Shown: in pieces, positions 47,238 through 64,000 of the stretch
How the letters are laid out: each line of letters starts with the position of its first letter
Numbering within the stretch: the first letter of the stretch is position 1
Source of the DNA: Bacteroidetes bacterium RIFCSPLOWO2_12_FULL_37_12
GTDB taxonomy: Bacteria; Bacteroidota; Bacteroidia; 2-12-FULL-37-12
Reading direction: 5' to 3'
Assembly (NCBI GenBank): GCA_001769655.1
Contig: MEPC01000038.1
Coordinates: 1-64,000 of the forward strand
Length of the DNA: 64,000 nucleotides
Made by a program: the position numbers and the translations under genes
Notes under the pieces: model-generated
Database searches by the model: none
What the model was told of the DNA's origin: nothing
The model's input: the letters and a program-made list of their open reading frames with translations, nothing else

Positions 47238-47325
47238 AATTCAAGGAAAGAATTAACGCTAAACACTAAACACTAAACAATTAACACTAAATAATTAAGT
47301 ATTAAGAATTTATATATTTATTATT

Positions 47326-48234
47326 ATGTTCAGAACAACCACTATTTTATTCGTTTCTACATGTATAGGATTTTATGCATGTCAATCAAAACAATCTGCC
47401 GAAACAAAGTTTCAGGAATCGCTTGACACGCTCAGCGCTGTCACGGTAGCCGACACATCAGAAAAAACCACCGGAGATGTTATTTCATCCTTACCCTCTC
47501 CATTAGAAATTTCTTCCATGATAAAGGAATCGGGAGCAGATTTTTCCAGTTCCATGCTAAATCCTGTGAATAATACTTCCAAATACACAACCTATCACAT
47601 GAAGGCGATAAATCTTGGGGTTTTTGGCGCTGATCTGGGGTATATAAATATTTACAATCAAAATAAATCCGCTCTCGAGTACATTCGCTCTGTAAAAAAT
47701 CTTGCCGATGAACTCCGTGTTGGGCAATTTTTTGATTTTACCACGCTTGCCCGTTTGGCAAAAAATGCCGAAAATATTGATTCTCTACTTTATTTAACCA
47801 CTTCGGGATTCGAAAAAATGGATGAATTCCTAAAAGAAAAAAATCGCGGAAATATCAGCGCGTTAATTCTTACCGGCGCCTGGCTCGAAGGGCTGTACCT
47901 GGCTACACAAGTGGCAAAAACCAAACCCAACAAAGAATTGATTGAGCGGATTGGTGAACAAAAAATTTCCTTTCAGGATCTGATGAAACTTTTAGAAAAT
48001 TTTAAATCGGATCAAAATATTATTAATGTGATTACTTCTTGCGGGACATTGAAAAATGAATTCGATAAAGTAGAAATTGAATATAAACACGGGGAAACAT
48101 CCTCAAGCGAAGTTGACGGGGTTCTGGTTGTTGTTGACAGCGGCTCAAGTACGGTTAAGATTGCCGACGAACAATTAAAAAATATTACCAACTTAACCGA
48201 AGAACTCAGGAATAAACTGATTACAGAAATTTAG
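47326..48234 (+). CDS. Family B lipoprotein, copy B1
   Basis: 302 residues. Signal with lipobox (CIGFYAC, Cys19). The mature part is shared with B2: SLPSPLEISSMIKE, INLGVFGADLGYINIYNQNK, NLADELRVGQFFDFTTL, KEKNRGNISALILTGAWLEG and ERIGEQKISFQ, then an alpha-helical C-terminus. The family looks like an exported, mostly helical domain anchored to a membrane. No known family recognised. Confidence 0.75.
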   Translation: MFRTTTILFVSTCIGFYACQSKQSAETKFQESLDTLSAVTVADTSEKTTGDVISSLPSPLEISSMIKESGADFSSSMLNPVNNTSKYTTYHMKAINLGVFGADLGYINIYNQNKSALEYIRSVKNLADELRVGQFFDFTTLARLAKNAENIDSLLYLTTSGFEKMDEFLKEKNRGNISALILTGAWLEGLYLATQVAKTKPNKELIERIGEQKISFQDLMKLLENFKSDQNIINVITSCGTLKNEFDKVEIEYKHGETSSSEVDGVLVVVDSGSSTVKIADEQLKNITNLTEELRNKLITEI

Positions 48235-48286
48235 TGTTACGGTTTTGATACTTGATGTTTGATATTTGATATATGAAATCTTATTC

Positions 48287-48757
48287 ATGATTACATCCCG
48301 GACATATTTACTTAATTTGAAATTCCTGCTCCTGCTACTTCCGTTACTATTCCACCCGGCGATCATATTTCCTGATTGTTCCAGCAATGATTTGTTTTTT
48401 GATAACTGCGCCCGGAATCTGAATGAATATACGTTCTTGAAATCCTATCAATTTGACCAATCCCAACTTAAAAAATTAGGATTACGTCCTACAGTGAAAT
48501 ATTCAAGCATCTTTTCAAAGGGGTCTGAATATTTTTTTTCCGTATGTAACGAAAATCGTACTGATAATAATAAAATGATCCTTAAATTATACGACAGCAA
48601 TGAGCGATTAATCACGAGTACGTATGACCCTGTATTCAACCGGTATTTCAGCAAATTCAAATTTCCATGCAGAAGAACCGGGGTTTATTATATAGAGTTT
48701 TCATTTCAGGGTGCTTTAGATGGGTGTGGCGCTGGAATGGTGGGGATTAAGATGTAG
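48287..48757 (+). CDS. Family A small exported protein, copy A2
   Basis: 156 residues from ATG 48287. Hydrophobic leader (LNLKFLLLLLPLLFHPAII), then CSSNDLFFDNC, SSIFSKGSEYFFSVC, LYDSNERLITSTYDP, FPCRRTGVYYIEF and GCGAGMVGI. The Cys pattern (C..., C, C, GCG) is the same as in A3, suggesting disulfides in the periplasm. Confidence 0.72.
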   Translation: MITSRTYLLNLKFLLLLLPLLFHPAIIFPDCSSNDLFFDNCARNLNEYTFLKSYQFDQSQLKKLGLRPTVKYSSIFSKGSEYFFSVCNENRTDNNKMILKLYDSNERLITSTYDPVFNRYFSKFKFPCRRTGVYYIEFSFQGALDGCGAGMVGIKM

Positions 48758-48803
48758 GGTAAATGGTTTGGTGGTTAGATGGTAAAATGGTTAAATGGTT
48801 AAT

Positions 48804-49751
48804 ATGAATTCATCAAAGTCAATTTTCAAACACCTTAAGCTGAATGCTTTTATATCTCTGTTTATAACAGTTCTTTTTTTTTCTACTTCCTGCCAGAAAA
48901 AACAAACTCTTACCGAAAATGGTTCTACTCCTGAAACAAAGGTTGCAAAACCAGATACGACCGTTATAGCGCCAGAAGTAATTGATGGTTTACTACATTC
49001 CATACCCTCTCCTCTTGAAATTTCACTGTTGATTAAAAAAACTGTGGTATCATTCATATCAGATATTACAAATCCCTATACAAATTGCGATAACTACACA
49101 ACTCCATTTAAACAAGCCGTAAATCTGGGAGTATATTCTGCTGATATCGGATATCTCGGTTTGTATAATAAACAAACTGTATCAACTCTTTACGTAAGAT
49201 GTCTTCGCAAATTAGCAGATGAGTTGAAAGTCGGGCAATTTTTTACCAGCGAAAAATTACAACGCGCACGCACGTATTCTACTCATCCGGAACAACAGGA
49301 TTCCCTGCTTACTCTTATCACCATGTCTTTTGAAGAAATGAATGAATATCTGAATGAAAAGAACCGCAGAAATGTCAGCGTGCTTATTGTCACCGGTGCA
49401 TGGATTGAAGCACTGAATTTATCGTTGAAGGTCTATGAACAAAACCCTTCCCAAGCGTTATTAGAAAGAATCGGGGAACAAAAAATCACTCTCGACAATA
49501 TCCGGCTCGTATTGTCTGTTTTTAAAAATTTTCCTGAGTTTGCTCCGCTGATTGAACATCTTGACGAACTCAAAAAGGTCTATGACAGGGTAGTAATTAC
49601 TTACACATATGGGGAACCGGAATTCTCAGAAGAACACGGAATGTTGGTTGTGCAGGATAAATCAACCAGCAAAGTTGAGATTACTCCCGATATACTGAAT
49701 GATATAAGGGCATTGACTATCAGGATTCAGAAGTTGGTAACAGCGGTATGA
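48804..49751 (+). CDS. Family B lipoprotein, copy B2
   Basis: 315 residues from ATG 48804. Signal with lipobox (VLFFSTSC). Shares with B1: SIPSPLEISLLIKK, VNLGVYSADIGYLGLYNKQT, KLADELKVGQFFTSEKL, NEKNRRNVSVLIVTGAWIEA and ERIGEQKITLD. The upstream in-frame ATG at 48795 comes from a GGTTAAAT satellite. Function unknown. Confidence 0.75.
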   Translation: MNSSKSIFKHLKLNAFISLFITVLFFSTSCQKKQTLTENGSTPETKVAKPDTTVIAPEVIDGLLHSIPSPLEISLLIKKTVVSFISDITNPYTNCDNYTTPFKQAVNLGVYSADIGYLGLYNKQTVSTLYVRCLRKLADELKVGQFFTSEKLQRARTYSTHPEQQDSLLTLITMSFEEMNEYLNEKNRRNVSVLIVTGAWIEALNLSLKVYEQNPSQALLERIGEQKITLDNIRLVLSVFKNFPEFAPLIEHLDELKKVYDRVVITYTYGEPEFSEEHGMLVVQDKSTSKVEITPDILNDIRALTIRIQKLVTAV

Positions 49752-49757
49752 TGGATA

Positions 49758-49810
49758 CAAACCTTCAAGGTTTGCATGGTTTTGAGGCGCTGGAAAACCT
49801 TGAAGATTTG
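49758..49810 (-). repeat. Dispersed repeat R5, inverted copy
   Basis: On the minus strand it reads CTTCAAGGTTTTCCAGCGCC then TCAAAACC and ACCTTGAAGGTTT, matching the units at 42756-42930. It lies in the gap between B2 and A3. Confidence 0.8.
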
Positions 49811-49870
49811 GATTAGTTTAGTAATACAATGGTAATACGATGGTGGCACCTTTATAAACTGATTGAAATT

Positions 49871-50317
49871 ATGGTTATAAAATATTTCTCATCCTTTTTG
49901 TTTTTCTGCTTTTTCACCATTGGTGTCACCCGCGCGCAATGCGAGGGAGATGCATTTTTTGATTCCTGTATGTCTAAAATCAAAACCTATACTTTTTTAA
50001 AAACTTATACTTCAAAAATCAAAAAGTCAAAAAAAGGGAAAGAAAGAACAGAGATGCATTCCTACGTCCTGAGCAAGGGAACTTCTTACATGATAACTGC
50101 CTGCAGTAGCACAGGACCTGAGGCAAAGCTAATTGTGACACTTGAGGATGGAAATCATAAACCATTGGCAAGCACGTATAGCGAAAAAACAAAAAAACAT
50201 TACCCTGCAATTGGCTATAACTGTCAGACAACCGGAATTCATTATTTTATTTTTACCTACGACAAAGACATGATAGAGGGTTGCGGAGTTTCATTGCTTG
50301 CCTTTAAAAAAATGTAG
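49871..50317 (+). CDS. Family A small exported protein, copy A3
   Basis: 148 residues from ATG 49871. Signal peptide (YFSSFLFFCFFTIGVTRAQ), then CEGDAFFDSC, SYVLSKGTSYMITAC, LEDGNHKPLASTYSEK, YNCQTTGIHYFIF and GCGVSLLAF. It closes the A-B-A-B-A array. The Cys positions match A2. Confidence 0.75.
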   Translation: MVIKYFSSFLFFCFFTIGVTRAQCEGDAFFDSCMSKIKTYTFLKTYTSKIKKSKKGKERTEMHSYVLSKGTSYMITACSSTGPEAKLIVTLEDGNHKPLASTYSEKTKKHYPAIGYNCQTTGIHYFIFTYDKDMIEGCGVSLLAFKKM

Positions 50318-50409: not shown

Positions 50410-51132
50410 TCACCTTCTCTTCCCCAGGTTCGGATTAATTTTTCTCGCTTTTTCAAAGTAATAGGTAGCTAACTGATCTTTCCTTTGTGTGTCATAAATG
50501 ATAGATAGATAATTATACGCATCGGCATTCAGCGAATCAATACCTATAATTTTATTGAAAACCTTTATAGCGGGGTCATGATATTTCGCCTCATTCATAT
50601 AGAGATAACTTAGCCCTAATTTCATATACGCATCAAGGTAGGTAGAATCGTATTGAATGGATTTTTTAAATAAGGGTATTGCCTTGTTATAGCTTGTATT
50701 CTCCAGTTCAACTAAACCCATTTTATAATAAACAGTGGGATTCACTGAACCAAGTCCAATAATTTTTCTATAAACCTTGGTGGCTTCTGTAGTAAAACCT
50801 ACTGTTTCATACGCATCGGCAAGTAACCAATACGCATCTTCCTCTTTCGGTTTGAGTTTAATTAAATCATTAAACGAGTTGATGGCTTTTTCAATGTCCT
50901 TTAATTCAGTATAAACAATGCCTAATTGCCGGTGTGCTTCCGCATATTTAGGATCTAAATCAATAATGTCTTTGAATGTTTTTATGGCATTTTTAAGATC
51001 TCCTTTGACTACCATGCTCACTCCTTTTTCAAACAACTCATTCGAGAGATTTGAATGAGGTGATTTGGAATCCTGCGAATAACTAATTAGCGGAAAAAAG
51101 ATGACGAGCGAAAAGATAAGTTTTTTGGACAT
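50410..51132 (-). CDS. Exported TPR-repeat protein at the end of the signalling block
   Basis: 240 residues. Signal peptide (KLIFSLVIFFPLISYSQ). At least five TPR units, e.g. LKNAIKTFKDIIDLDPKYAEAH, IEKAINSFNDLIKLKPKEEDAY and YNKAIPLFKKSIQYDSTYLDAY, up to ATYYFEKARKINPNLG. It is 29 bp downstream of the ABC transporter gene on the same strand and probably co-transcribed. A periplasmic scaffold. Confidence 0.82.
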   Translation of the reverse strand: MSKKLIFSLVIFFPLISYSQDSKSPHSNLSNELFEKGVSMVVKGDLKNAIKTFKDIIDLDPKYAEAHRQLGIVYTELKDIEKAINSFNDLIKLKPKEEDAYWLLADAYETVGFTTEATKVYRKIIGLGSVNPTVYYKMGLVELENTSYNKAIPLFKKSIQYDSTYLDAYMKLGLSYLYMNEAKYHDPAIKVFNKIIGIDSLNADAYNYLSIIYDTQRKDQLATYYFEKARKINPNLGKRR

Positions 51133-51161: not shown

Positions 51162-54100
51162 CTATTTTCTATTAATTATTTTCCTTATACTAACTCTCCA
51201 CCTTTTTAGTTTTAAAACTCCTGAGAATAACTTTTCCATACTGTCCATTGCGTATTTCAGCGATTCAAAATAAAGAGTGAAAAACAAAATTGTTGTCATA
51301 AACCATATTACAAGAACATTGAAGAAAAAAGTATCGAAAAGATTTCCGAATAAATGTTTGTTGGGGGCATAAAAATGCGCCCGGTATGCCAATGGATTAG
51401 AACGGTCAATCGGGTCAAGATACACCGCATCAATTAACTGCACCATTCTGCCATTCACTTCCACCAGCCGGTACTCCGCTGTTTTATTGGTTACAATGTC
51501 TTCGAGGTCGTTATTAAAATAATTGGATTTCATAAACTTAAAAACCTGCGCTTTTGGTGGCGTGGATTGCGCATTACTTAAAATCATTTCTTTGCGGGTG
51601 TTGACTTCTGAAAAATGATTTGTATAATAATCTCCCAGTTCATCGAGGTAACTTCTGGCGCTATCTGCAATTTTTGAGTTAAAATGGTCAGGGGATAACC
51701 GGTCTGATAATGTAAATGGCATAGAAGTGATGCGTGATTCGTTTTCTATTTCATTACGTACCACTTGCAGATTTCGCAGGGCTTTTTGTTTCAAAGAATC
51801 ATAAGGACTTTGCCAATACATTTCTGTGGTTTTTAAACGGTCTTTTAGTTCGGGAATAAGATAAACCTGTTTAAAATCGAACTGACTTTCTTTTTTTTCC
51901 AATTCATAAAAATTTCTTTCAAACAAATTATCTTTAAACTGATGCACCATTAGCCCTTCAAATGCCCAACGGGATGCCATCAGGTCGGCTATAATAGGGA
52001 CCTTATCCCTTTTGCCAACAAATTGATTTAATTTGTCGAAACTGAAAATGGCGCCGCTTAAAATCATTTGCGGAATCAAAAGAATCGGGATTAAGATATA
52101 AATCGTAACAGCAGAATTAAAAGATGCTGAAATGTTCATGCCGAGCATATTAGCAAAACAGCTTACAGAAAATAACGTGAACCAGTAGCCAATGTTCATG
52201 TCACGGATTTCAAGAATATAATTTCCAATTAACGTAAAGCTGAGAGTTTGTATGGAAGAAATTACAAAAAGGATGATCACTTTGGACCATAGGTAGCCAA
52301 GACGACTCAGGTTGAGAAATTTTTCCCTTTTTTGAATTTTCCGGTCTCTTATAATTTCCTCCGCACTGACAGTGAGTCCCATGAACAGCGCCACAATAAT
52401 GCACATGAAAAGATAAGCCACTATGTTATCATTATCGCTGAATTTATAAACATCAGAAAGTGGGTCTTCCACATAACGGATAATGAAAGCGAGAATCAGC
52501 GCTAACACCGGTGCCTCGAGAAAATTAATCAGCATGTATTGCGTATTGCTGATTTTTGAGAGAACATCGCGGATGATAAAAATCTTCAATTGATTGAACA
52601 GGGAAGGAATTCTCAGCGTTCGGGGAGGAGCATCATTTACTTCATTTAATTGTTTCGCAGGAAAATTTTTCTGAAAAAGCTGATACCAGTGTTCGGGTGA
52701 CACTTTTCTTTTCTCCGTCAGTTTTCCATATTCATCCACCACTTTCGCTTCAATGATGTTGAAAATAAGTTCTGTATTTACATTTCCACATTCTGAACAT
52801 TGTCCTTTTTCGCTTTGTAATTGCTTGTCGGCTTTCTTGAAATACATCACCGCTTCCACCGGATTCCCATAATAAATAGGTTTTCCTCCCACATCAAGTA
52901 TCAGAATTTTGTCAAACATTTTATAGATGTCGGAAGAAGGTTGATGTATAACCACAAATATCAGCTTGCCTTTGCTGGCAAGTTCTTTAAGCAGGTCCAT
53001 GATATTTTCAGAGTCCCGGGATGATAAACCGGAGGTTGGTTCATCCAGAAATAAAACAGCGGGCTCTCTAATCAATTCAAGGGCGATGTTTAACCGTTTG
53101 CGTTGCCCTCCGGAAATTTTTTTATCTAACACGCTTCCTACCTTAAGCCCTTTGATTTCTCCGAGTCCAAGATCCACCAGGGTTTTCAATACCAGGGCAT
53201 CCAGTTCTTTTTCTTTGAGGTTTTTAAAACAAAGTTTTGCATTATAATATAAATTCTGATATACAGTAAGTTCTTCCATTAATAAATCATCCTGTGCCAC
53301 ATATCCAATCACGCCTTCAACTTTTTCTTTTTCGGAAAAAATATCTATTTTATTGATTCTTACGGAGCCGGAAGTGGGCTTTTCAATTCCTGAAAGCACA
53401 TTCAGCAAAGTTGTTTTCCCCGCGCCGCTCGCTCCCATTATTGCAATCAGGAATCCGTTTTCTTCATTTATGTTAACATGATTCAAACCCAGATTGCCTC
53501 CCTTAAAACGATATATCAGGTCATCGGCGCAAAAAGAAAGGCGGGATTCGGTTTTATCTTTCAAAAAACGGCTAACCACATCACTGTAATAAATGGGTTT
53601 TCCTTTAGGAAGTTTGATGGTACTGCCGTAAGAAAAAAGATAAATATGTTTTTTATTTACGGTTAATCCGTTTAAAAAAACTTCTTCATCTCCGGTATAT
53701 TTCAAAAAATACATATCCACACTGGGCGCATGGATAATGTAAAAAGAACCGTCAAGTGATTCTACCGGAATATGTTTTGTTTTTGTGTATTTTCCATCAG
53801 GAAATTGATTAACAATCAACAATTCATCCATATCCACTTCGTCAAGCATTGATTTAAAAACAAACTGCTCAATGATTTTATATTCATTGGGTTCAAATTT
53901 GAAAACAAGTGAAACCGTATCCACAATTTCTTTTTCGAGAGGTGTCACTTTTTCATCCGCGCTGATAAGTTCCAGCAACCGGATTAAAAGAACAATTTTT
54001 TGTTTTTGCGTTAATGTTTTATTGATTTTTGAGCAGATAGATAAAGTTCTTACCGAGTCCTTTACAGAGGTCAGACGTCTGCCTTTGGGGGCTGATTCTG

Positions 54101-54287
54101 TTTGCTGAGGTTTATTGTATCCGGAGAGATCATCATAAAGCGCAAGATAATCACGGGCGGCTTCCCTGTCCAATTGCTGGAGTAAAAAACCTTCCACTAA
54201 TTGGCGTTGTTCTACTGAGACACTTCCTTCTTGTTTGGTGGTAATGGCAAACAATTGCATCAGGGCTTTTAGGAGTTCTTCACTCAT
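51162..54287 (-). CDS. ABCG-type transporter with extra N-terminal regulatory region
   Basis: 1041 residues. Residues 1 to about 150 are helical and TerB-like (LLELISADEKVTPLEKEIVDTV). A stretch at about 195-265 (VFLNGLTVNKKHIYLFSYGSTIKLPKGKPIYYSDVV, split here for reading) resembles an FHA-like beta domain. The ATPase follows: GASGAGKTTLLNVLSG, ISGGQRKRLNIALEL, LFLDEPTSGLSSRDSEN. After a CSECG knuckle come about five membrane segments, a large extracytoplasmic insert (about 740-960) and a last segment (FFFNVLVIWFMTTILFFTLYF). ABC2/ABCG half-transporter layout. The 3' end runs into a TACTATT satellite. Substrate unknown. Confidence 0.85.
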   Translation of the reverse strand: MSEELLKALMQLFAITTKQEGSVSVEQRQLVEGFLLQQLDREAARDYLALYDDLSGYNKPQQTESAPKGRRLTSVKDSVRTLSICSKINKTLTQKQKIVLLIRLLELISADEKVTPLEKEIVDTVSLVFKFEPNEYKIIEQFVFKSMLDEVDMDELLIVNQFPDGKYTKTKHIPVESLDGSFYIIHAPSVDMYFLKYTGDEEVFLNGLTVNKKHIYLFSYGSTIKLPKGKPIYYSDVVSRFLKDKTESRLSFCADDLIYRFKGGNLGLNHVNINEENGFLIAIMGASGAGKTTLLNVLSGIEKPTSGSVRINKIDIFSEKEKVEGVIGYVAQDDLLMEELTVYQNLYYNAKLCFKNLKEKELDALVLKTLVDLGLGEIKGLKVGSVLDKKISGGQRKRLNIALELIREPAVLFLDEPTSGLSSRDSENIMDLLKELASKGKLIFVVIHQPSSDIYKMFDKILILDVGGKPIYYGNPVEAVMYFKKADKQLQSEKGQCSECGNVNTELIFNIIEAKVVDEYGKLTEKRKVSPEHWYQLFQKNFPAKQLNEVNDAPPRTLRIPSLFNQLKIFIIRDVLSKISNTQYMLINFLEAPVLALILAFIIRYVEDPLSDVYKFSDNDNIVAYLFMCIIVALFMGLTVSAEEIIRDRKIQKREKFLNLSRLGYLWSKVIILFVISSIQTLSFTLIGNYILEIRDMNIGYWFTLFSVSCFANMLGMNISASFNSAVTIYILIPILLIPQMILSGAIFSFDKLNQFVGKRDKVPIIADLMASRWAFEGLMVHQFKDNLFERNFYELEKKESQFDFKQVYLIPELKDRLKTTEMYWQSPYDSLKQKALRNLQVVRNEIENESRITSMPFTLSDRLSPDHFNSKIADSARSYLDELGDYYTNHFSEVNTRKEMILSNAQSTPPKAQVFKFMKSNYFNNDLEDIVTNKTAEYRLVEVNGRMVQLIDAVYLDPIDRSNPLAYRAHFYAPNKHLFGNLFDTFFFNVLVIWFMTTILFFTLYFESLKYAMDSMEKLFSGVLKLKRWRVSIRKIINRK

Positions 54288-54296
54288 GGGGGAGGG

Positions 54297-54374
54297 GTAT
54301 AGGGTATAGAGGGTATAAAGGTATAAAGGTATAGGGGGAATCCATTATACCCTATACCGCTATACCTTTATACC
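54297..54374. repeat. GGTATA satellite with inverted arms
   Basis: AGGGTATAGAGGGTATAAAGG on the left and CCCTATACCGCTATACCTTT on the right can pair. It fills the gap between the SiaC-like and ABC transporter genes, where it may weaken read-through. Confidence 0.6.
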
Positions 54375-54376
54375 TC

Positions 54377-54751
54377 TTAAAGTATAATCTTCTCAATAGG
54401 AAGCGAAAACATTTCAGAATAGTCATTGGCGGCATCTTCCATCTCCAGGTCGTCTTTGTAATAAAACCATCTCACATTTACTTTCATCCCATCGTCAATA
54501 AATCCCTGCAACGTATGCAGAATGTCCCAAATCATTTTAGAAGAAGCAGTATTAAAGTACTCCATCCTGAAATCAAGGATTATGGATTTGAATCCGCTTT
54601 CCTTGTATGTTTTTAACCACTGAATGATGGGTAAATAAAATTCAGCTGCATCTTCGGGCATGGAACGGCCCGAAAATTCATATAAATTTTTCTCCGGATC
54701 AAGAATGATCTTGGGAGTGTCGTCGGTTGCTTCTATGATTAATTTGTCCAT
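54377..54751 (-). CDS. SiaC-like regulatory phosphoprotein (DUF1987)
   Basis: 124 residues, full family length. TPKIILDPEKNLYEFSGRSMPEDAAEFY is the DUF1987 signature. In Pseudomonas, SiaC is phosphorylated on Thr68 by SiaB and dephosphorylated by SiaA, and binds a diguanylate cyclase when unphosphorylated. Here residue 68 is also Thr, in YFNTASSK. It is 12 bp downstream of a SiaB-like kinase gene, on the same strand. No diguanylate cyclase is in the window, so the output partner must differ or lie elsewhere. Confidence 0.88.
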   Translation of the reverse strand: MDKLIIEATDDTPKIILDPEKNLYEFSGRSMPEDAAEFYLPIIQWLKTYKESGFKSIILDFRMEYFNTASSKMIWDILHTLQGFIDDGMKVNVRWFYYKDDLEMEDAANDYSEMFSLPIEKIIL

Positions 54752-54763
54752 AGGATCTTACAA

Positions 54764-55372
54764 TTAAATTGTTTGAACATTTTTAACGGGATTATTTCTA
54801 TTGATTTTAACTTGGAGTGAATAAAACCAGCGGGTTCCGTCCACCGGATTAAAATCAAAATATAATTTACTGCCTGATTTACGGGCGATATCCACCAAAC
54901 CCAATCCTGCTCCGCCCCGGTCACTTAACCTGGAGTTCTGAAGCATTTCTTTATACAGGTTTTTCAATCCTACTTCATCCAGATTATTGATTTTGGTTAA
55001 TTTTTCATTGAGTGCATCCACTTCGTTGTATTCAATAAAATTTCCGGTATAGATATAATACTCATTTTCATCGCGTCCTATCATAAAAATAGCATTCAGA
55101 TTTTCTTTCTTTTCAGCATTGAGTTGGGAGTGTTTGCAAACATTCTGCAAACATTCCATCATGACATAAAAAATTTTTCGTTTGATGCTCATGTCCTCCC
55201 CTACGAGGTCTATTTTCTTCTCAGTCATTGAAAGCAACGAAGTGGTTAGTTCCTGAGAAAACTCACCTTCATACACCAGCAACAGCTTGTGCTTAATCAT
55301 GCTTTTGTGGAGGTCGAATATATAACTGATCTCCACCTGCGGGGGTTCGCCTTTTATATTTTTATCAAGCAT
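54764..55372 (-). CDS. SiaB-like protein kinase (GHKL fold), copy 2
   Basis: 202 residues. FYVMMECLQNVCKHSQL is the GHKL N-box region and GGAGLGLVDIARKSGSKLYF the G-box. These anti-sigma-factor-like kinases phosphorylate the SiaC partner. About 35 percent of the positions match copy 1 by eye, with shared DLHKSMIKHKLLLVYEGEFSQ. The two genes are 2 bp apart. Having two kinases with one substrate is unusual. Confidence 0.85.
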   Translation of the reverse strand: MLDKNIKGEPPQVEISYIFDLHKSMIKHKLLLVYEGEFSQELTTSLLSMTEKKIDLVGEDMSIKRKIFYVMMECLQNVCKHSQLNAEKKENLNAIFMIGRDENEYYIYTGNFIEYNEVDALNEKLTKINNLDEVGLKNLYKEMLQNSRLSDRGGAGLGLVDIARKSGSKLYFDFNPVDGTRWFYSLQVKINRNNPVKNVQTI

Positions 55373-55374
55373 TT

Positions 55375-55956
55375 CTAATTGCTTTTTACTTTTGTCTGGA
55401 ATAAGAAAAATGAGTATTCTTCGTTAAAAGGAATAAAATCAAATAACAGTTTTTCTTTTGATTTTCTGGCTATCTCAATCAACCCAAGCCCGCAGTTGCT
55501 TTTTTCATCAATAGGTCTTCCCGACATGGTTTCTTTAAATTTGGTTTTAAGTTCATCCTGCGTCAAAGTATTAATTTCTTCTAAATGTAATTTCAAGGCA
55601 TCTACTTCAGGGTTCGATATAAGATTACCGGTTGAAATATAGTACCAATCATTGTCTCTGCCAATGGTAAAAATAGAGGACTTTTCATTCAATTCTTCTT
55701 TTGGAAAAGCGGCGTGTTTGGAAATATTCTGCAAACATTCTACGGTGATGCCGAAAATTTTTTTAATAATATTGGATTCCTCGCCAATGGCGCCCATTTT
55801 TTTCTCTGCCATTAATGCCAGTATCTTAGTGATATCCTGGCTAAATTCACCTTCATAAATCAAGATGAATTTATGATTCAGCATGGTCCGGTGAAGGTTG
55901 AAAACAAAACTCATGTCTTCCTTTTTCATTTCAATACCATTAAAAAAATCTACCAT
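55375..55956 (-). CDS. SiaB-like protein kinase (GHKL fold), copy 1
   Basis: 193 residues. FGITVECLQNISKHAAF (N-box) and CGLGLIEIARKSKEKLLFDF (G-box), with NLHRTMLNHKFILIYEGEFSQ near the N-terminus. A second in-frame Met at position 10 is an alternative start. It lies between the PAS-SpoIIE phosphatase and the second kinase on one strand. The two copies may answer different inputs or form a heterodimer. Confidence 0.85.
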   Translation of the reverse strand: MVDFFNGIEMKKEDMSFVFNLHRTMLNHKFILIYEGEFSQDITKILALMAEKKMGAIGEESNIIKKIFGITVECLQNISKHAAFPKEELNEKSSIFTIGRDNDWYYISTGNLISNPEVDALKLHLEEINTLTQDELKTKFKETMSGRPIDEKSNCGLGLIEIARKSKEKLLFDFIPFNEEYSFFLFQTKVKSN

Positions 55957-56021
55957 TGGTTGGTCCGGGGTTATTAAACTAAAGCACCCAAAGATATAGA
56001 TTTTATGATTAACTGCAAAAC

Positions 56022-57581
56022 TTAAATTCTGATTCCCATCACCAGAATATCATCCACTTGTTTCCTGCCATTCATCCAATTATCAAGATTGGTCTGTATA
56101 AAAAATTCCTGGTCAATGAGGTTAAGTTTCTGCGCTTCATTTAACATCTCCTGGAACCGGTACCGCATTAATTTGCTGTCATCATTTCCACCCGGTTGGT
56201 CAATGATTCCATCCGAAAATAAATACAAGGTGTCGTTCTTTAGAAGGTTAACCCGCTGGGAAGTAAATTTCTTTTCTTTTTTCCCTTTATAAAGCCCGAT
56301 AGAAAAAGGATCACCTTCTAAAACTGTCAATATTCCATTTCTGAAATGATAAAGCGAGTGTCCGGCGCCGGAAAAGTCCAGAAACATTTCTTGCGTATTC
56401 AGACAACACAATCCGATATCCAATCCATCCTGAATCTGATTTTCGGGTTGACTATTTTTAAATAAATTAATCAGATTTTCATCTAAATTCTTCAACATCC
56501 AGGCAGGGTTGGCATGACTTGCATCTTTTACTGTTTGATTCAACAGATTATATGCAAGCATGGAAAGCATGGCGCCCGGAACCCCATGACCGGTGCAGTC
56601 AGCCACCGCAAATAATACCGAGTCCTCTTTCCGTGTTAACCAATAAAAATCGCCGCTTACAATATCTCTCGGTCTAAATAGTACAAATGACTCAGAAAAA
56701 ATATCTCTTATTTTTTGAACCGATGGCACAATGGCGTTTTGAATCCGTTTTGCGTAGTCAATGCTCTGGGTTATCTTTTTGTTTATGTCCTGCAGGTCGG
56801 TATTTATTCTTTTGATTTCTTCACTGTCTTTTTTTGATTGTGTAATGTCCCTTTGAATGGAAATCCAATATAATATATTGGCGTGATTGTCTTTCACGGG
56901 AACGGAATTAAGTTGAATCCAGAAATCACTTCCATCTTTATGATAATTGACAAGTTCGGTTTTGATAGGTAACCCGTTTTCAAACGCTTTTTCAATCTTT
57001 TCCACTTCCGTTTTATCTGTTTTTTCGCCCCGCAACACATCAAGCGGAATGCCATACAAATCATCGAGAGTATAGCCGGTAATTTCTGTAAAGGCATCGT
57101 TCATGTAAAGGATACGGGGTCTTTCATGTTTTTCATTACTTGCCTCCGTGACCAGCACGCCTTCGCTGGTATTCACTACAATGGATTCGTACAACTGCAG
57201 GCGGTTTCTTAATTCGTAAGCATCATAAGCTTTTTTAATTACTCTGGAAAGTATGTGCAGAAATATATGTTTTGTGTCTTTAAGAATATAATTTTTTACT
57301 TCATACGTGTTGGCTGTAAGAATTTCCTCGGCTTCCAAGGGTTCCATAAGCAAAATCAGATGGGAAAAAGCAAGCCATTCGGAAAATTTATTTTCTCCAT
57401 TTTTCAAATTTTCGTAGTCGGTTAAAATTATATGAAAACCGGCGGGTCTTTCTGTAGGTGTGTTTTCTATACCAACAATCTTTTGCCACAATGGAAACTC
57501 AGCGGAAATCTGTGTTACTAATTTGTTTGACAATTGTTTGTCATTTAACCAGAAATAAATATAGGAGGGTTGGGTGAGCAT
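56022..57581 (-). CDS. PAS-containing SpoIIE/PP2C phosphatase
   Basis: 519 residues. The first 120 residues resemble a degenerate receiver domain (AGFHIILTDYENLK; HLILLMEPLEAEEIL). A PAS domain lies at about 130-250 (ILYMNDAFTEITGYTLDDLYG, DGSDFWIQLNSVPV). A short coiled coil leads to SpoIIE: RDIVSGDFYWL, ADCTGHGVPGAM, LFSDGIIDQPGG and QVDDILVMGI. The linker KITQSIDYAKRIQNAIVP is shared with the two propeller proteins upstream. It is cytoplasmic, with no membrane segment, and should dephosphorylate the SiaC-like partner. Confidence 0.88.
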   Translation of the reverse strand: MLTQPSYIYFWLNDKQLSNKLVTQISAEFPLWQKIVGIENTPTERPAGFHIILTDYENLKNGENKFSEWLAFSHLILLMEPLEAEEILTANTYEVKNYILKDTKHIFLHILSRVIKKAYDAYELRNRLQLYESIVVNTSEGVLVTEASNEKHERPRILYMNDAFTEITGYTLDDLYGIPLDVLRGEKTDKTEVEKIEKAFENGLPIKTELVNYHKDGSDFWIQLNSVPVKDNHANILYWISIQRDITQSKKDSEEIKRINTDLQDINKKITQSIDYAKRIQNAIVPSVQKIRDIFSESFVLFRPRDIVSGDFYWLTRKEDSVLFAVADCTGHGVPGAMLSMLAYNLLNQTVKDASHANPAWMLKNLDENLINLFKNSQPENQIQDGLDIGLCCLNTQEMFLDFSGAGHSLYHFRNGILTVLEGDPFSIGLYKGKKEKKFTSQRVNLLKNDTLYLFSDGIIDQPGGNDDSKLMRYRFQEMLNEAQKLNLIDQEFFIQTNLDNWMNGRKQVDDILVMGIRI

Positions 57582-57588
57582 TTTCTTT

Positions 57589-60500
57589 CTAAATCTTCAC
57601 ACCAATCACCAGAATATCATCCAATTGTTTTCTATCTCCTTTCCACTCCTCAATGACCTGGTCGAGGTATTCTTTTTGTTCTTCCATGGATAATTTCTGT
57701 ATTTCAAGAACCATTTTCTGAAAACGGGTTCTCATGAATTTCCGGTTATCGGGTCCACCAAACTGGTCTATATAACCATCCGAAAATATATAAATAGTAT
57801 CGTGGTTCAATACATCCAGTTCGTGTGAGGTAAAAAGTTGTCGTTTTTTTCCCAAATATTTACCGATAGGAAATTTATTGGCAGTTTTTATAATTAGTTC
57901 CTGATTTCTTATTAAATATAAAGGATTATAGGCGCCAGAATATTTTAGTTTCATGGTCTGCCGGTCAAAACTACAGAGGGCGATATCCATTCCATCGCGC
58001 ATATCACTTTCTTCAAAGTCCTCTCTGAAAATTTTACCAAGTCCTGTGTTAAGATTTTGAAGGATGCCTGAGGGTTCGGGAATGAGGTCCCCATTTCCGG
58101 AAGAAGCAGATTGATTCAGTAAATTATATCCTACAATAGACATCATGGCGCCGGGAACTCCATGTCCGGTGCAATCGGCGGCGGCAAACAGAATTGAATT
58201 GCCTTTTACATCAAGCCAATAAAAATCTCCGCTTACAATATCTCTGGGCTTAAACAAAATAAATGATTCCGGAAAATATTCATGAACAAGTTCCATAGGG
58301 GGGAGAATTGCCTTTTGAAGTCGCCTCGCATAATTAATACTTTGGGTTATTTTGCGGTTTTTCTCTGAAAGCAAACTATTGGCTTCAGATAATTCATTAG
58401 TTCTTTCTGTCACTTTCGCCTCAAGCACCGCTTTTTCTTTGATTAACTTTTTCTCTCTCCATTTTATATAACCATACATGCACAGCATTAAAAAAACAGC
58501 GCATCCGGAATAAAACCACCATGTTTTCCAGAAAGGCGGAGTAACTATGAATGAGAATGTAACCGGTTTTTCATTCCAAAGTCCATCGTTATTTGCCGCC
58601 CGCAACATAAATATATATTCCCCATGCGGGATATTCGAATAGGTAACTCTCGTTTCGTTAGTCACCGGAAGCCAGTCGTTATCAAAGCCCTGCAGTTTCC
58701 ATTGGTATCTGACTTTTTCAGGTACGGTTAAACTTACCGCTACAAAATCAAACGTAATGTAATTCTGGTCGTAGCGGAAAACATGATCCGCCGGAATTTC
58801 TACATCTTTAAAATAAACACGTAGCCGGTTTATGCGAGTCAGTGGCTCAGCGGAATTCATGATAACTTCTTTAGGATTGTATTTGATGACTCCCTTGATG
58901 GTGCCAAACCAAAGGTTACCGTCCTTGTCTTTACAGGTTGCCTTGTGATTGGTTTCAATGCCGGTAAATCCTTCCGCTTTCCCATAATTCCTGAACGTGC
59001 CACGGTCAACAATATATTGGTCAACGCCTTTATTAGTTCCAAACCAGAGATTTCCTTCCGAGTCCTCATTGATAAGATAAATTAAATCGGAACTTAGCCC
59101 GTCAGTTGTGGAAAATTTTTTAAACACATACTTTGACTGTTCCCCTGCTTTTAATTCATCAGGATTTCGCACAATTTTTATAGCGCCCTCTTTTGTTCCC
59201 AACCAAATATTGTTTTTACGGTCTTCGAATAAAGCCAATATATATTCGCATGGCAATCCTATTTCTTTTGTAATTTTATGAACTTCGGGCTTGGAAGTGT
59301 CACTTTTTAAAATAACATGAGAAAGTCCTTTCGAAGTTCCAGCCCATAAATCTCCGTTATGGTCAATAATAAAATCGCGTACAAACTGTTTTACGAGACC
59401 ATCTTTTGGGGTAATGAATTTTCTTTTATATCCCTGTGGTGCACTTGAATCAGGGGTTAATTTCAACAATCCCCTGTACATAAATGCAATCCATATATTT
59501 TTGAACTTATCTTCAATTATTTTATTAGAATGTTTATAATATGAAATAGTATCAAGAGTAGTAAACAGTTTAAATGCTTTTTCACCGGTACCAAACATGG
59601 GTTTATATTGAATTGTTCCAATATCTCCTGCAATCCAGATATTTCCATAAGAATCCTCCGTAATATGGGAAACGCTATTCGTTATAAGATTTTTAGGGAA
59701 CTGAAAAACTGAAAATCGTTTTGTCAACTCAGCGGTTGGGTCATAAATATTTAACCCTCCTGTGTAAGAACCAATCCAGAATTTTTCGTCCTTTGTTTGC
59801 AAGATTGAAAAAACCGTATTATCGTTCAGACCGTCTTCTTTAGAGAAGGACTCAAACATTTTGCCGCGGAACCGTGTCACTCCTCCGCCATCAGTGCCAA
59901 TCCATAGGTTTCCTTCCCTATCTTCGAATAATCCAAACAAATCATCGGTAGGTAATCCGTTGCGTGTGGTGATGTTTTCAAGAACTTTTACCTTGCCGGA
60001 ATTTTCATCCATATCAACCCTGAAAAGCCCTTGCCCACTGGTCGCTACCCAATAATTTCCTCGTAAATCCTGAATAAAAGCAGTGACTCTTTCTCCGCGA
60101 AAAGTTTCTTTACCAATTGAAAAATTATGAAATACATAATGACCTAATTTCCGCGAGGTCTCTGGATCTATTCGTGTAAAACCTACCTGTGAAACTAACC
60201 ATATACTTCCGATTTTGTCTTTTACAACATGATAAATACGGTCGCTGATAATGCCATCTTCTTTTACAATCTTATCAAAATAGAGGATGAATTTTTTGGC
60301 TTGGTCCTTATCCACTTTTCGTAAAAGATGCTTCATGATATTTACTCCTTTTGTGGAAGAAAAATAAAGGTTTCCAAGGTTGTCTTCATTAATAGATAAG
60401 ACAAGGGAATCCAATAGCTCCTGCTTGACTGTGAAATTTTTAAATAATTCCGTTCTTTTTTCTTTAGGATAATCAGGGGTCTCCGTAAGTTGAATAGTTT

Positions 60501-61005
60501 CTGCAGGAAGTTTTGAGACCCCGTTATAAGTGCCTGCCCAAAGATTATTTCCTTTATCAAGGTAGAGGGATAAAATTTGCAGTGATGCCAATCCATTCTC
60601 CTTGTTATAATTGATAAACACGGGCTTGCTTCTGCTGGCAGTTTTAGCCCCTGAAACATTCAGTTGGTCAGGTGGAAGGTAATGGGTAATTCCCTGTTGA
60701 GTACCTATCCACACACCGCCCGAAGTATCGGGAAAAAGGTCATAAATTGTATTGTCAATCAACCCATCTCTTACAGTAAATGTCTCAAAATTTATCCCAT
60801 CATACCGGCACACTCCTCCTCCCATAGTGCCAAACCAAAGATTACCGGATTTATCCTGGCAGATTGCATACACCTGTGATTGTGCTAATCCTTGTTGGAC
60901 GTTGAAGGTCTGGAAGCTGTAGGTTTGTGCATTGAAGTGTGGGATGGCGACTAACACAAAAAAACATAGTGCCACTATAAAATTTATAATCTTTAAAAAT
61001 TTCAT
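57589..61005 (-). CDS. Beta-propeller sensor with SpoIIE/PP2C phosphatase output
   Basis: 1138 residues. Signal/anchor 1-27, then two-component-regulator propeller repeats (about 30-740, with NLWFGTMGGGV, NLWAGTYNGVS, NLWIGTDGGGVTRF and others), a Y_Y_Y domain (YSNIPHGEYIFMLRAANNDG, about 770-840), one membrane segment (WFYSGCAVFLMLCMYGYI, about 850), a coiled coil, and SpoIIE (RDIVSGDFYW, ADCTGHGVPGAM, FSDGYIDQFGG, QLDDILVIGVKI). This is the periplasmic sensor of Bacteroidota hybrid two-component systems joined to a phosphatase instead of a histidine kinase. It lies 7 bp upstream of the PAS-SpoIIE gene. Confidence 0.9.
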   Translation of the reverse strand: MKFLKIINFIVALCFFVLVAIPHFNAQTYSFQTFNVQQGLAQSQVYAICQDKSGNLWFGTMGGGVCRYDGINFETFTVRDGLIDNTIYDLFPDTSGGVWIGTQQGITHYLPPDQLNVSGAKTASRSKPVFINYNKENGLASLQILSLYLDKGNNLWAGTYNGVSKLPAETIQLTETPDYPKEKRTELFKNFTVKQELLDSLVLSINEDNLGNLYFSSTKGVNIMKHLLRKVDKDQAKKFILYFDKIVKEDGIISDRIYHVVKDKIGSIWLVSQVGFTRIDPETSRKLGHYVFHNFSIGKETFRGERVTAFIQDLRGNYWVATSGQGLFRVDMDENSGKVKVLENITTRNGLPTDDLFGLFEDREGNLWIGTDGGGVTRFRGKMFESFSKEDGLNDNTVFSILQTKDEKFWIGSYTGGLNIYDPTAELTKRFSVFQFPKNLITNSVSHITEDSYGNIWIAGDIGTIQYKPMFGTGEKAFKLFTTLDTISYYKHSNKIIEDKFKNIWIAFMYRGLLKLTPDSSAPQGYKRKFITPKDGLVKQFVRDFIIDHNGDLWAGTSKGLSHVILKSDTSKPEVHKITKEIGLPCEYILALFEDRKNNIWLGTKEGAIKIVRNPDELKAGEQSKYVFKKFSTTDGLSSDLIYLINEDSEGNLWFGTNKGVDQYIVDRGTFRNYGKAEGFTGIETNHKATCKDKDGNLWFGTIKGVIKYNPKEVIMNSAEPLTRINRLRVYFKDVEIPADHVFRYDQNYITFDFVAVSLTVPEKVRYQWKLQGFDNDWLPVTNETRVTYSNIPHGEYIFMLRAANNDGLWNEKPVTFSFIVTPPFWKTWWFYSGCAVFLMLCMYGYIKWREKKLIKEKAVLEAKVTERTNELSEANSLLSEKNRKITQSINYARRLQKAILPPMELVHEYFPESFILFKPRDIVSGDFYWLDVKGNSILFAAADCTGHGVPGAMMSIVGYNLLNQSASSGNGDLIPEPSGILQNLNTGLGKIFREDFEESDMRDGMDIALCSFDRQTMKLKYSGAYNPLYLIRNQELIIKTANKFPIGKYLGKKRQLFTSHELDVLNHDTIYIFSDGYIDQFGGPDNRKFMRTRFQKMVLEIQKLSMEEQKEYLDQVIEEWKGDRKQLDDILVIGVKI

Positions 61006-61035
61006 TTTATTTATATTATGGTCTATATAAATATA

Positions 61036-61103
61036 GAATATTGAACAAGGAATATTGAATGTTGAAATAAACTTCGAAATTCAATATTCCTTGTTCAATA
61101 TTC
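61036..61103. repeat. 25-bp perfect hairpin
   Basis: GAATATTGAACAAGGAATAT plus TGAAT (61036-61060) is repeated exactly in inverse at 61079-61103, loop 18 nt. It is followed, on either strand, by AT-rich sequence. It lies between the two propeller genes and could terminate the upstream one. Confidence 0.9.
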
Positions 61104-61129
61104 ATTATTTTTTATTTATTTATAACCCC

Positions 61130-64000
61130 CTACACCCTCACCCCAATCACTAAAATATCATCCAATTGCTTTCTTTTTCCTTTCCATTCCTCAAAACGAA
61201 TGTCTAAAATATCTCTCTGTTCGTGCATTTCCTTATCCTGAAAAGAAATCACCATTTCCTGAAATCGCGTTCTCATGAACTTACGGTCTTCGGGACCTCC
61301 AAATTGATCCATGTATCCATCCGAAAACATATAGAGACAATCTCCTTTTTGCAACGTTAGCGAATGGTTGGTAAATTCCCCCGAAAATCCTTCTATCGTT
61401 TTACCAATGGGCAAGCGGCTTCCGGGAGAAATGGTTAAATTTTTATTTCTCACCACATATAATGGATGATGAGCCCCCGAAAATTCCACACTATTTTTTT
61501 TCATATCAAAAACACAAAGTGAAATATCCATTCCATCGCGGCGATTACTTTCATCATAACTCTCTCTGAAAATACGCTTCATTCCATTATTAAGATTACC
61601 AAGTATTAAGGAGGGTTGAATGTTGTTTGAATCAGAAACTGCCTGATTCAGCAGATTGAATCCTACGATAGACATCAGGGCTCCGGGTACACCATGTCCT
61701 GTGCAGTCAGCCGCCGCCATCAAAACCTTTCCATCACGCACATCCATCCAATAAAAGTCGCCGCTGACAATATCGCGGGGCTTGAATAAAACAAATGATT
61801 GGGGTAAATAACGTTGTATGTATTCTTGCTGGGGAAGCATAGCTTTCTGAAGCCGTTTTGCATAATTAATGCTTTTAGTAATCTTGCGGTTAGTGTCACC
61901 AAGTTGTAAATTAATTTTAGAAAGTTCAAAAGTTCTTTCAGTTACTTTTGATTCCAACGCCGCTTTTTCTTTACGAAGCCGCTTTTCACGCCACTTAATA
62001 AAGCCGTAGATGAGCAATATAAGTGTCACTCCCGATGAAGTGAAGAACCACCAGGTCATCCAGAAAGGCGGAAGAATTTTAAAAGAAAAACTAACGGGTT
62101 TTTTGTTCCACAATCCATCGTTATTGGCGGCACGCACCTGATAGGTGTACGTACCCGGGGAAATGTTGGAATAAGTAACCCTTGTTTCATTGGTTACAGG
62201 TAGCCAATCTTTGTCGAAACCATCGAGCTTCCATTGATATTTTACCTTTTCAGGTACCGTTAAACTGAGTCCCAGAATATCGAACGTGAAATAATTCTGA
62301 TTATATTCGAAAGTATGATTTTCGGGTAATGTTACATCTTTGTAATAGATCCGGAGTCGTTGAATCTGAGTGATCGGCTCTTGTGGGTTTACTTTGGCTT
62401 CTCCGGGATTATATTTTACAACACCCTGAATGGTACCAAACCATAAATTTCCATCTCTGTCTTTACAGGATGCCTTATGGTTGGTTTCAATCGCTGTAAA
62501 TCCATCTTCTTTTCCATACGTTTTAAAATGGTCTCTTTCCATAATATATTGAACCACTCCTTTATTAGTTCCAAACCATACATTCCCTTCCTCATCTGAT
62601 TGTGAAAAATAAACCAGATCAGAATTCAGTCCGTTTGTAATATTATATATTTGGAACTTGAATTTTCTTTCCACTTTGTTGAATAAACCGGGTTGTTCGG
62701 GTGACATTCTTGCAACTCCGTTCTGGGTAGTAATCCAGATATCACCGTTTTTATCCTGCAGGAGTGTCATTATTTCATCATCAGGTAAGCCGGAAGATTT
62801 ATTCAGAGTATATACAGGAGGTCTTAGTAAACCGGCATCTTTGAACGCAATGAGGTTTAACCCCTTTCTGGTAGCTATCCATACATTACCTTCATTATCT
62901 TCTAAAATATCATTTATAAAATTATCAGCTAAGCCATTTTGTTTTGAAAGGTATGTCCTTGTATAATCAGATGGATTATTTAGATTTCTTCCCAATATCA
63001 TAATCCCCTTATACATCGTACCCACCCAGATGGCACGCCTGGAGTCCTGCATAAGGCAAGAGGTCTGATTGTAATAAGGAATTGAATCTTCTTTTAAATA
63101 CACTTTTATTTTATTTTCCTTGCTAACATACGGGTCAGGATTATATCGCGCAACCCCCTTATAAGTCGCAATCCAAATATATCCTTGTTTATCGGTAATC
63201 ATATCTACAATCTGATCATCAGGCAGACCATTTGTTTTATCGAGATATGTAAATTTCTGATTGATATTTCCAGGTAAAGACGGATCAAAAATGGAGACAC
63301 CTTTAGTATAAGCGCCAAACCACATTCTTCCGGACATATCTTGTAGGATTGAAAACACAGTATTATCTTTCAAGCCATGGCTTGTATTGTATGTTTCAAA
63401 CATTTTTCCCCTGAACCGTGCAACGCCACCTCCATCAGTGCCAATCCATAGATTTCCTTCGTAGTCCTGGATGATAGACCATAAAAAATTAGTGGGAAGT
63501 CCATTTTGTTCTGTAATTTGTTCGAGCGTGATTAATTTATGTTCATCCTCATCAGGTATTATATGTAGTAGTCCGGCGCCGTCTGTTACGAACCAGAAAT
63601 CTCCATGGGAATCCTGTAAAAATGATCTGGGAAAGTTTTTTTCATTTTTGAAAAATTCCGGTTTGTCCCATTTATAATTGGTAAAAACGTAATGCCCCAA
63701 ACTTCTGGAAGCAGAAGGGTCGAGTTTAGTAACTCCCTCAGAATTTAAAAACCAAATTTGTCCGAGGTTGTCCTGAGCCATTTCATAAATAAGTTCATTC
63801 ATCAAACCATCTTTCATAGAAATTTTATCAAAATATAATATAGAAGAGGAAGAGTCGGGTCCTGTAGTTTTTCGTGGTAAATAACTCAGTGTATTAACTC
63901 CGTAATAGGTGCCAATGTATAATTTCCCGAATTGGTCTTCTTTAATTCCAGTTATAATGCTGTCGGAAAGTCCATCCTTGACAGAGTAATGTTTAAAAAG
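61130..64000 (-). CDS. Beta-propeller sensor with SpoIIE/PP2C phosphatase output, 5' end beyond the window
   Basis: The frame is open from the stop at 61130 to the window end, so the N-terminus is missing. It is a close paralogue of the protein at 57589-61005: propeller repeats (NLWIGTDGGGVARF, RMWFGAYTKGVS, NVWIATRKGLN), Y_Y_Y domain (YSNISPGTYTYQVRAANNDG), a membrane segment (WFFTSSGVTLILLIYGFI), coiled coil and SpoIIE (RDIVSGDFYWM, ADCTGHGVPGAL, FSDGYMDQFGG, QLDDILVIGVRV). Compared with the paralogue, about 180 residues of N-terminus lie outside. An internal ATG at 63817 is not the true start. Confidence 0.9.
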   Translation of the reverse strand, partial: LFKHYSVKDGLSDSIITGIKEDQFGKLYIGTYYGVNTLSYLPRKTTGPDSSSSILYFDKISMKDGLMNELIYEMAQDNLGQIWFLNSEGVTKLDPSASRSLGHYVFTNYKWDKPEFFKNEKNFPRSFLQDSHGDFWFVTDGAGLLHIIPDEDEHKLITLEQITEQNGLPTNFLWSIIQDYEGNLWIGTDGGGVARFRGKMFETYNTSHGLKDNTVFSILQDMSGRMWFGAYTKGVSIFDPSLPGNINQKFTYLDKTNGLPDDQIVDMITDKQGYIWIATYKGVARYNPDPYVSKENKIKVYLKEDSIPYYNQTSCLMQDSRRAIWVGTMYKGIMILGRNLNNPSDYTRTYLSKQNGLADNFINDILEDNEGNVWIATRKGLNLIAFKDAGLLRPPVYTLNKSSGLPDDEIMTLLQDKNGDIWITTQNGVARMSPEQPGLFNKVERKFKFQIYNITNGLNSDLVYFSQSDEEGNVWFGTNKGVVQYIMERDHFKTYGKEDGFTAIETNHKASCKDRDGNLWFGTIQGVVKYNPGEAKVNPQEPITQIQRLRIYYKDVTLPENHTFEYNQNYFTFDILGLSLTVPEKVKYQWKLDGFDKDWLPVTNETRVTYSNISPGTYTYQVRAANNDGLWNKKPVSFSFKILPPFWMTWWFFTSSGVTLILLIYGFIKWREKRLRKEKAALESKVTERTFELSKINLQLGDTNRKITKSINYAKRLQKAMLPQQEYIQRYLPQSFVLFKPRDIVSGDFYWMDVRDGKVLMAAADCTGHGVPGALMSIVGFNLLNQAVSDSNNIQPSLILGNLNNGMKRIFRESYDESNRRDGMDISLCVFDMKKNSVEFSGAHHPLYVVRNKNLTISPGSRLPIGKTIEGFSGEFTNHSLTLQKGDCLYMFSDGYMDQFGGPEDRKFMRTRFQEMVISFQDKEMHEQRDILDIRFEEWKGKRKQLDDILVIGVRV

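Follow-up and report, generated by a model that had tools for sequence, protein, structure and literature searches.

A probable SiaABC-type partner switch with propeller-linked phosphatases and an ABCG transporter as candidate output in Bacteroidota

The closest described system is SiaABCD of Pseudomonas aeruginosa, in which a PP2C phosphatase, the kinase SiaB and the phosphoprotein SiaC are encoded in one operon and the proven effector, SiaD, is the product of the gene right after siaC (PMC7647112, PMC8457831). The phosphosite of SiaC, Thr68, lies in a Y-x-N-T motif (Y-L-N-T-S-S in its wider frame; PMC7647112). SiaC binds to the SiaD stalk at two motifs, where it contacts V78, R80, I81, S82, D83, R84, Y85 and Q86, and phosphorylation of Thr68 blocks this binding (PMC8457831). 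The same study proposed a role for DUF1987 proteins in modulating adjacent proteins and did not settle why an extra binding protein is needed (PMC8457831). Beyond that study, our literature search returned nothing on DUF1987, and likewise nothing on DUF6272 or on propeller-SpoIIE proteins; the literature found describes SiaABC only as a diguanylate cyclase switch. Three other kinds of system bear on the comparison. Bacteroidota hybrid two-component systems join a sensor half, made of a periplasmic propeller and a Y_Y_Y domain with one transmembrane (TM) helix, to histidine kinase, receiver and DNA-binding parts. In switches of the RsbU/RsbW/RsbV type, a PP2C phosphatase and a GHKL kinase act on a small STAS-like protein; SiaB is itself a GHKL-type kinase, and the first layer of the Sia switch resembles that of these systems. 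Finally, in Mycobacterium tuberculosis the FHA-bearing ABC exporter Rv1747 is tied to PknF, a threonine kinase encoded in one operon with it (PMC3908365, PMC5549992).

The locus described here lies in a stretch of 64,000 nucleotides (the window) from a genome of 3.94 Mb that is 97.9% complete. It consists of eight genes, all on the minus strand, and this array, which an earlier note had read from the letters alone, is borne out at the same coordinates by Pfam and NCBIfam domains. Propeller-SpoIIE phosphatase 1 (61130..64000, minus) is cut by the window end; its full gene (C38:61130-64567) encodes 1145 residues comprising a signal peptide, a Reg_prop beta-propeller, a Y_Y_Y domain, a TM helix, a coiled coil and a SpoIIE PP2C domain, whose motifs can be read from the sequence as RDIVSGD, ADCTGHG, FSDG and LDDI. 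Phosphatase 2 (57589..61005, minus; 1138 aa) has the same architecture. In Pfam both proteins match Reg_prop (E 6e-57 and 2e-48), Y_Y_Y (E 3e-15 and 5e-16) and SpoIIE, a domain found above cut-off in three genes of the locus, and the best solved-structure match of the SpoIIE half of phosphatase 2 by phmmer is P. aeruginosa SiaA (6k4e, E 3e-37). The proposed joining of propeller sensors to PP2C phosphatases is supported by this architecture: with Pfam and NCBIfam only SpoIIE was found past the TM helix, and histidine kinase, receiver or AraC parts were not. The sensor half is thus that of the hybrid two-component systems, whereas a SpoIIE phosphatase replaces their kinase, receiver and DNA-binding parts. 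The third phosphatase, PAS-SpoIIE (56022..57581, minus; 519 aa), is SiaA-like in its C-terminal half. Its PAS domain is similar to those of LOV photoreceptors (97 bits to the YtvA family, below cut-off), the photoactive Cys of LOV domains is replaced (GIPLDVLRG), and the first 130 residues of the protein resemble a degenerate receiver.

Two SiaB-like kinases and one SiaC-like protein follow. Kinase 1 (55375..55956, minus; 193 aa) and kinase 2 (54764..55372, minus; 202 aa) score 161.6 and 150.3 bits against the SiaB family model NF038262 (cut-off 85); in both the catalytic N-box Glu and Asn and the GLGL box are intact. Tandem siaB genes are also present in five other loci. SiaC (54377..54751, minus; 124 aa, STAS-like) reaches 121.6 bits against PF09345 (cut-off 24.5) and matches the solved SiaC structures 6kko, 6kkp, 7e6g and 6k4f (phmmer, E 1e-13). 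Alignment to 6kko gives the phosphosite context Y65-F-N67-T68-A69-S70-S71-K72, so that Thr68, which the earlier note had singled out, is in the correct position (codon 54548..54550, minus, counted from the start codon) and is the predicted phosphosite; the Y-x-N-T motif is kept, with Ala69 where P. aeruginosa has Ser. The Pseudomonas equivalog cut-offs of NCBIfam are missed by all three components (SiaA 193-216 against 700, SiaB 74-89 against 225, SiaC 82.7 against 150 bits). From the second propeller gene through PAS-SpoIIE and both siaB genes to siaC the gaps are 7, 65, 2 and 12 bp, exactly as first reported; 124 bp separate the two propeller genes.

The gene 3' of siaC, after 89 bp, encodes a TerB-like/FHA-like/ABCG transporter (51162..54287, minus; 1041 aa), the conserved candidate output. 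Pfam detects ABC_tran at residues 268-419 (NBD), ABC2_membrane at 566-784 (TMD) and a weak TerB match; the NBD-TMD order with ABC2_membrane is that of the ABCG type, and the loop ahead of the last TM helix is enlarged. An AlphaFold2 model of the N-terminal 262 residues (53502..54287, minus), built from 57 sequences with a mean pLDDT of 90, consists of a TerB-like helical bundle (3-144) and an FHA-fold beta domain (about 155-232). The bundle resembles PG1108 (2h5n) with a Foldseek probability of about 0.9, and the beta domain resembles FHA structures with a probability of up to 1.00, the best E being 0.017 and none falling below 0.001. This domain contains an invariant N-G pair and the N terminus has no Pfam FHA match; as the residues that typically bind phosphothreonine cannot be made out in the window protein, the domain is named FHA-like. 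Compared with Rv1747/PknF, then, SiaB stands in for PknF, SiaC and a TerB-like domain are present, FHA is a fold match only, and no Hanks-type kinase was matched among the eight locus proteins in Pfam or NCBIfam. A SiaD-type stalk in the transporter was considered and rejected: profile comparison gave a probability of 1.1%, and a motif matrix on which the two SiaD motifs score 17.5 and 10.2 gave 5.8 bits for the window protein, with a family mean of 0.4 and a background per-protein median of 1.3. The segment LTSVKDS (residues 72-78), stalk-like by eye only, was rejected on the same scores, and binding of SiaC would need another surface.

A TPR protein (50410..51132, minus; 240 aa) is encoded 29 bp past the transporter. 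The earlier note had listed it at the end of the array; its presence beside the cluster is not conserved in other genomes (94 loci gave 4 matches, the gene itself included), and it was dropped from the unit. A terminator and promoter scan of the convergent gap beyond, of a kind that does not cover Bacteroidota promoters, gave nothing. The conserved cluster instead takes in five plus-strand genes at 46770-50317 that the earlier note did not include. Two encode lipoproteins (47326..48234, 302 aa; 48795..49751, 318 aa) of the family of the relatives' 302-aa lipoprotein, and three encode small secreted proteins (46770..47237, 155 aa; 48266..48757, 163 aa; 49829..50317, 162 aa) of the family of the relatives' 143-aa secreted protein, so that the finding reaches to 46770. 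No Pfam family was matched by the lipoproteins or by two of the small secreted proteins. The 302-aa lipoprotein is modelled as a mostly helical fold (pLDDT 87), and a fold search of the PDB returned nothing below E 0.8. Elsewhere in the genome (C19; L033:5333-8995), a SpoIIE gene is followed by genes for another lipoprotein of this family, also 302 aa long, and for a small secreted protein of 138 aa, with neither siaB nor siaC.

The placing of the transporter next to siaC recurs widely. A SiaC-alignment scan of named genomes yielded 80 loci from Bacteroidota groups or Chlorobiota, which are typically arranged as receptor, CheR, CheB, GAF, SpoIIE, siaB, siaC, TerB-ABCG, 302-aa lipoprotein and 143-aa secreted protein. 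The transporter lies directly 3' of siaC on the same strand in 65/80 of them, a figure that is no rate for SiaC at large since the loci were picked by similarity to the window SiaC; the lipoprotein is present in 61/80 and the small secreted protein in 58/80. Among all loci read, wherever both genes occur the transporter is 3' of siaC (84/84, of which 79 are immediate neighbours), on the same strand in 71 and on the opposite strand in 13. This linkage survives rearrangement, which argues for a functional tie. When the gene order of the window was sought elsewhere it was found in genome G425 (L220), and so it is not unique to this assembly: lipoprotein and secreted protein are on the plus strand, and transporter, siaC, three siaB and propeller-SpoIIE on the minus strand, with identities to the window of 54% for the transporter, 49% for SiaC and 41% for the propeller protein.

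Co-occurrence points the same way. Sixty relatives were compared, the window's own genome among them; many of the genomes used in this work are metagenome assemblies. SiaC is present in 40 of these, with up to 15 copies per genome. With a threshold of E below 1e-15, TerB-ABCG was detected in 35/40 SiaC-positive and 1/20 SiaC-negative relatives (p 4e-10). In a phylum sample it was found in 5/22 SiaC-positive and 1/374 SiaC-negative genomes (p 2e-6). Both Fisher values overstate independence, since the sampled genomes are akin. The association has exceptions on both sides. TerB-ABCG occurs without SiaC in G348 and G414, and paralogues away from any siaC are found in G049, G146, G186 and the window's own genome (C34:135691-136476); five SiaC-positive relatives have no TerB-ABCG, and numerous SiaC paralogues in the relatives lack an adjoining transporter. 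Most ABCG-linked SiaC fall in one clade (66/74 of its members), to which the window SiaC belongs. As regards SiaC copies as such, L048:2747-3970 and L090:6075-7307 each hold three consecutive siaC genes without siaB, and G398, G416, G438 and G425 have 10 to 15 copies each, many without an adjoining siaB or an obvious effector.

The propeller input, which the earlier note had regarded as a distinct logic, is not singular. Propeller-SpoIIE genes are present in 15/89 SiaC regions of relatives and also in L108, and thus represent a recurrent type of input. In relatives they are often followed by a lipoprotein of about 271 aa, siaB and siaC; this lipoprotein (271-274 aa; L197:3538-4362, L187:4818-5633 and nine other loci) matches no Pfam family and is a candidate co-sensor.

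A natural fusion combines parts of both proteins. Genome G429 encodes, between siaC and the transporter gene, a protein of 374 aa (L249:6525-7649) in which a TerB/FHA-like module (residues 5-223, E 1e-23) is followed by a SiaC domain (250-368, E 6e-28). This protein, the one fusion of its kind in the loci read, suggests that SiaC may act at the N-terminal TerB/FHA-like module of the transporter. Linkage, co-occurrence and this fusion support the ABC transporter as output, a role proposed for it at the outset. We therefore consider it probable that the locus encodes a threonine partner switch of the SiaABC type, with periplasmic propellers as its input, in which unphosphorylated SiaC acts on the ABCG transporter. 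The beta-propeller and Y_Y_Y domains would sense an envelope ligand in the periplasm, and the signal would pass through one TM helix and the coiled coil to the cytoplasmic SpoIIE phosphatase, with PAS-SpoIIE as an extra cytoplasmic input. Judged by their sequences, the two SiaB kinases would phosphorylate SiaC at Thr68 and the SpoIIE phosphatases would take the phosphate off. Unphosphorylated SiaC would then engage the cytoplasmic TerB/FHA-like module, presumably by direct binding, and set the activity of the transporter; that this form is the active one would follow the SiaD precedent. The adjoining lipoproteins and small secreted proteins may be envelope partners or cargo, and both ligand and substrate are left general in this proposal. 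Compared with SiaABCD, the presumed effector gene is likewise directly 3' of siaC, whereas a transporter without the SiaD stalk takes the effector's place, inputs come from propeller and PAS proteins, and there are three phosphatases, two kinases and Ala69 for Ser.

In Bacteroidota beyond the window's class, the gene 3' of siaC usually opens with a segment related to the SiaD stalk. Its consensus is EY..LL.QA..LT.IGD..Q.KL, the D and Q being invariant in 22 sequences. A profile of these 22 stalks, with SiaD left out, ranked SiaD (7e6g) best of 177,635 PDB sequences (E 9.6e-4); the best single stretch reaches 0.055, and the match falls on the two SiaC-binding motifs of SiaD. Stalks were recorded in the gene after siaC in L121-L126, L128, L129, L132, L134, L136, L139, L140, L142, L143 and L145. 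What comes after them varies: GGDEF (L121, L124, L125), a histidine kinase (L122, L123, L143), SpoIIE (L132, L134), a class III cyclase (L136, L142), a two-TM anchor (L139 and, within the window's class, C31, L201 and L218) or nothing (L128, L129, L140, L145). Several stalk genomes have GGDEF genes, some of them directly 3' of siaC. The shared stalk, sought in the gene that follows siaC, may offer a general means of finding SiaC targets. Across 396 phylum genomes the stalk is present in 17/22 SiaC-positive and 1/374 SiaC-negative ones (one weak match, E 1e-3, left out), a tally that is partly circular on the positive side, as the profile was built from some of the counted genomes, and not so for the near absence from SiaC-negative genomes. 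Stalk or TerB-ABCG is found in 21/22 SiaC-positive and 2/374 SiaC-negative genomes; of the five SiaC-positive genomes that lack a stalk, four carry TerB-ABCG, and the two occur together in the window's genome alone. Stalk and TerB-ABCG nearly exclude each other. Position 69 of SiaC, a residue in contact with SiaD close to D83 and Q86, is Ser in 12/12 stalk-linked and Ala in 71/85 ABCG-linked proteins, a split that may be due to shared ancestry.

The genome holds four genes each for SiaC and SiaB and about 16 for SpoIIE proteins (17 matches, two being pieces of one gene), and so the single phosphoprotein of the earlier note, for which the two kinases may compete, stands for the operon and not for the genome. 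It has no GGDEF domain anywhere, which extends to the whole genome the absence of a diguanylate cyclase noted at the locus; none was found in the 60 relatives either (0/60), and the same search finds GGDEF in 8/14 control genomes. Besides an orphan siaC on C3, two other Sia loci are present. One, at about 210-217 kb of C38, encodes a GAF/HAMP receptor, CheR, CheB, GAF, SpoIIE, SiaB and SiaC. Its SiaB (C38:216438-217004; L029:11438-12004) has lost the N-box Glu kept in 157/158 aligned SiaB and is probably inactive as a kinase, judged by its sequence. Its SiaC belongs to the same ABCG-linked clade as that of the window, so both may serve this transporter; if they do, propeller, PAS and CheR/CheB-type inputs would merge.

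The other locus, on C31, has siaB and siaC followed by a 175-aa coiled-coil protein with two TM helices (C31:2274-2801; L027:2274-2801) and the stalk motif KIITKVSDRLQ; this stalk (C31:2298-2525) is the only one of SiaD type found in the genome. A single-sequence PDB search with the protein gave no SiaD match; SiaD was reached only with the 22-stalk profile. The protein is likely a separate SiaC effector in the same genome. The window SiaC could itself act on a stalk protein elsewhere, such as this membrane-anchored one, the transporter being a mere neighbour. The position of that stalk directly after another siaC and the lack of a stalk motif in the transporter are in keeping with such a reading, which we nonetheless consider unlikely: the C31 stalk comes with a siaB and a siaC of its own, stalk genes occur in 5/60 relatives and are absent from most SiaC-positive ones, against 35/40 for TerB-ABCG, the Ser69/Ala69 split separates the two groups of SiaC, and the transporter is linked to siaC in two orientations and its module fused to SiaC.

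SiaC is structurally akin to anti-sigma factor antagonists (PMC7647112). Together with the GHKL-type SiaB and a first layer like that of RsbU/RsbW/RsbV, this would fit a transcriptional partner switch, with an anti-anti-sigma-like SiaC and the transporter genes as co-regulated targets in place of a direct partner. We regard it as very unlikely, as SiaC forms a separate family for which a direct effector, SiaD, has been solved (PMC8457831), siaC is followed in the loci read by genes for enzymes, membrane anchors or the transporter, with no sigma or anti-sigma gene recurring next to it there, and the fusion points to direct contact; with respect to RsbU/RsbW/RsbV, the window differs in having a separate phosphoprotein family, no linked sigma factor and a transporter as predicted effector. 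Least probable of all is that the propeller-SpoIIE genes encode independent phosphatases for other STAS proteins and adjoin the siaB-siaC-transporter cluster by position only, as the excess of SpoIIE over SiaC genes and the 124-bp gap past the first propeller gene might suggest, given the close spacing from the second propeller gene through siaC, the recurrence of propeller-SpoIIE in SiaC regions of relatives and in L108, and a PP2C domain whose best solved-structure match is SiaA.

Collectively, and with moderate confidence, we see SiaC as a general threonine-phosphorylated adaptor with exchangeable effectors, which are reached through a plug-in docking stalk across Bacteroidota and were replaced, in the window's class, by a TerB/FHA-like ABCG transporter directly gated by SiaC. 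If such gating holds, this would be, to our knowledge, the first case of a partner switch that controls an ABC transporter. Propeller sensors, familiar mainly from hybrid two-component systems, would then have a second role, in which they act on transport without transcription. To the question raised in PMC8457831, one phospho-adaptor with many effectors and a common docking stalk would be a testable answer. In a Bacteroidota group without enzymes that make c-di-GMP, SiaC is tied to a transporter and to uncharacterised lipoproteins, and a function can be predicted for several unannotated protein families.
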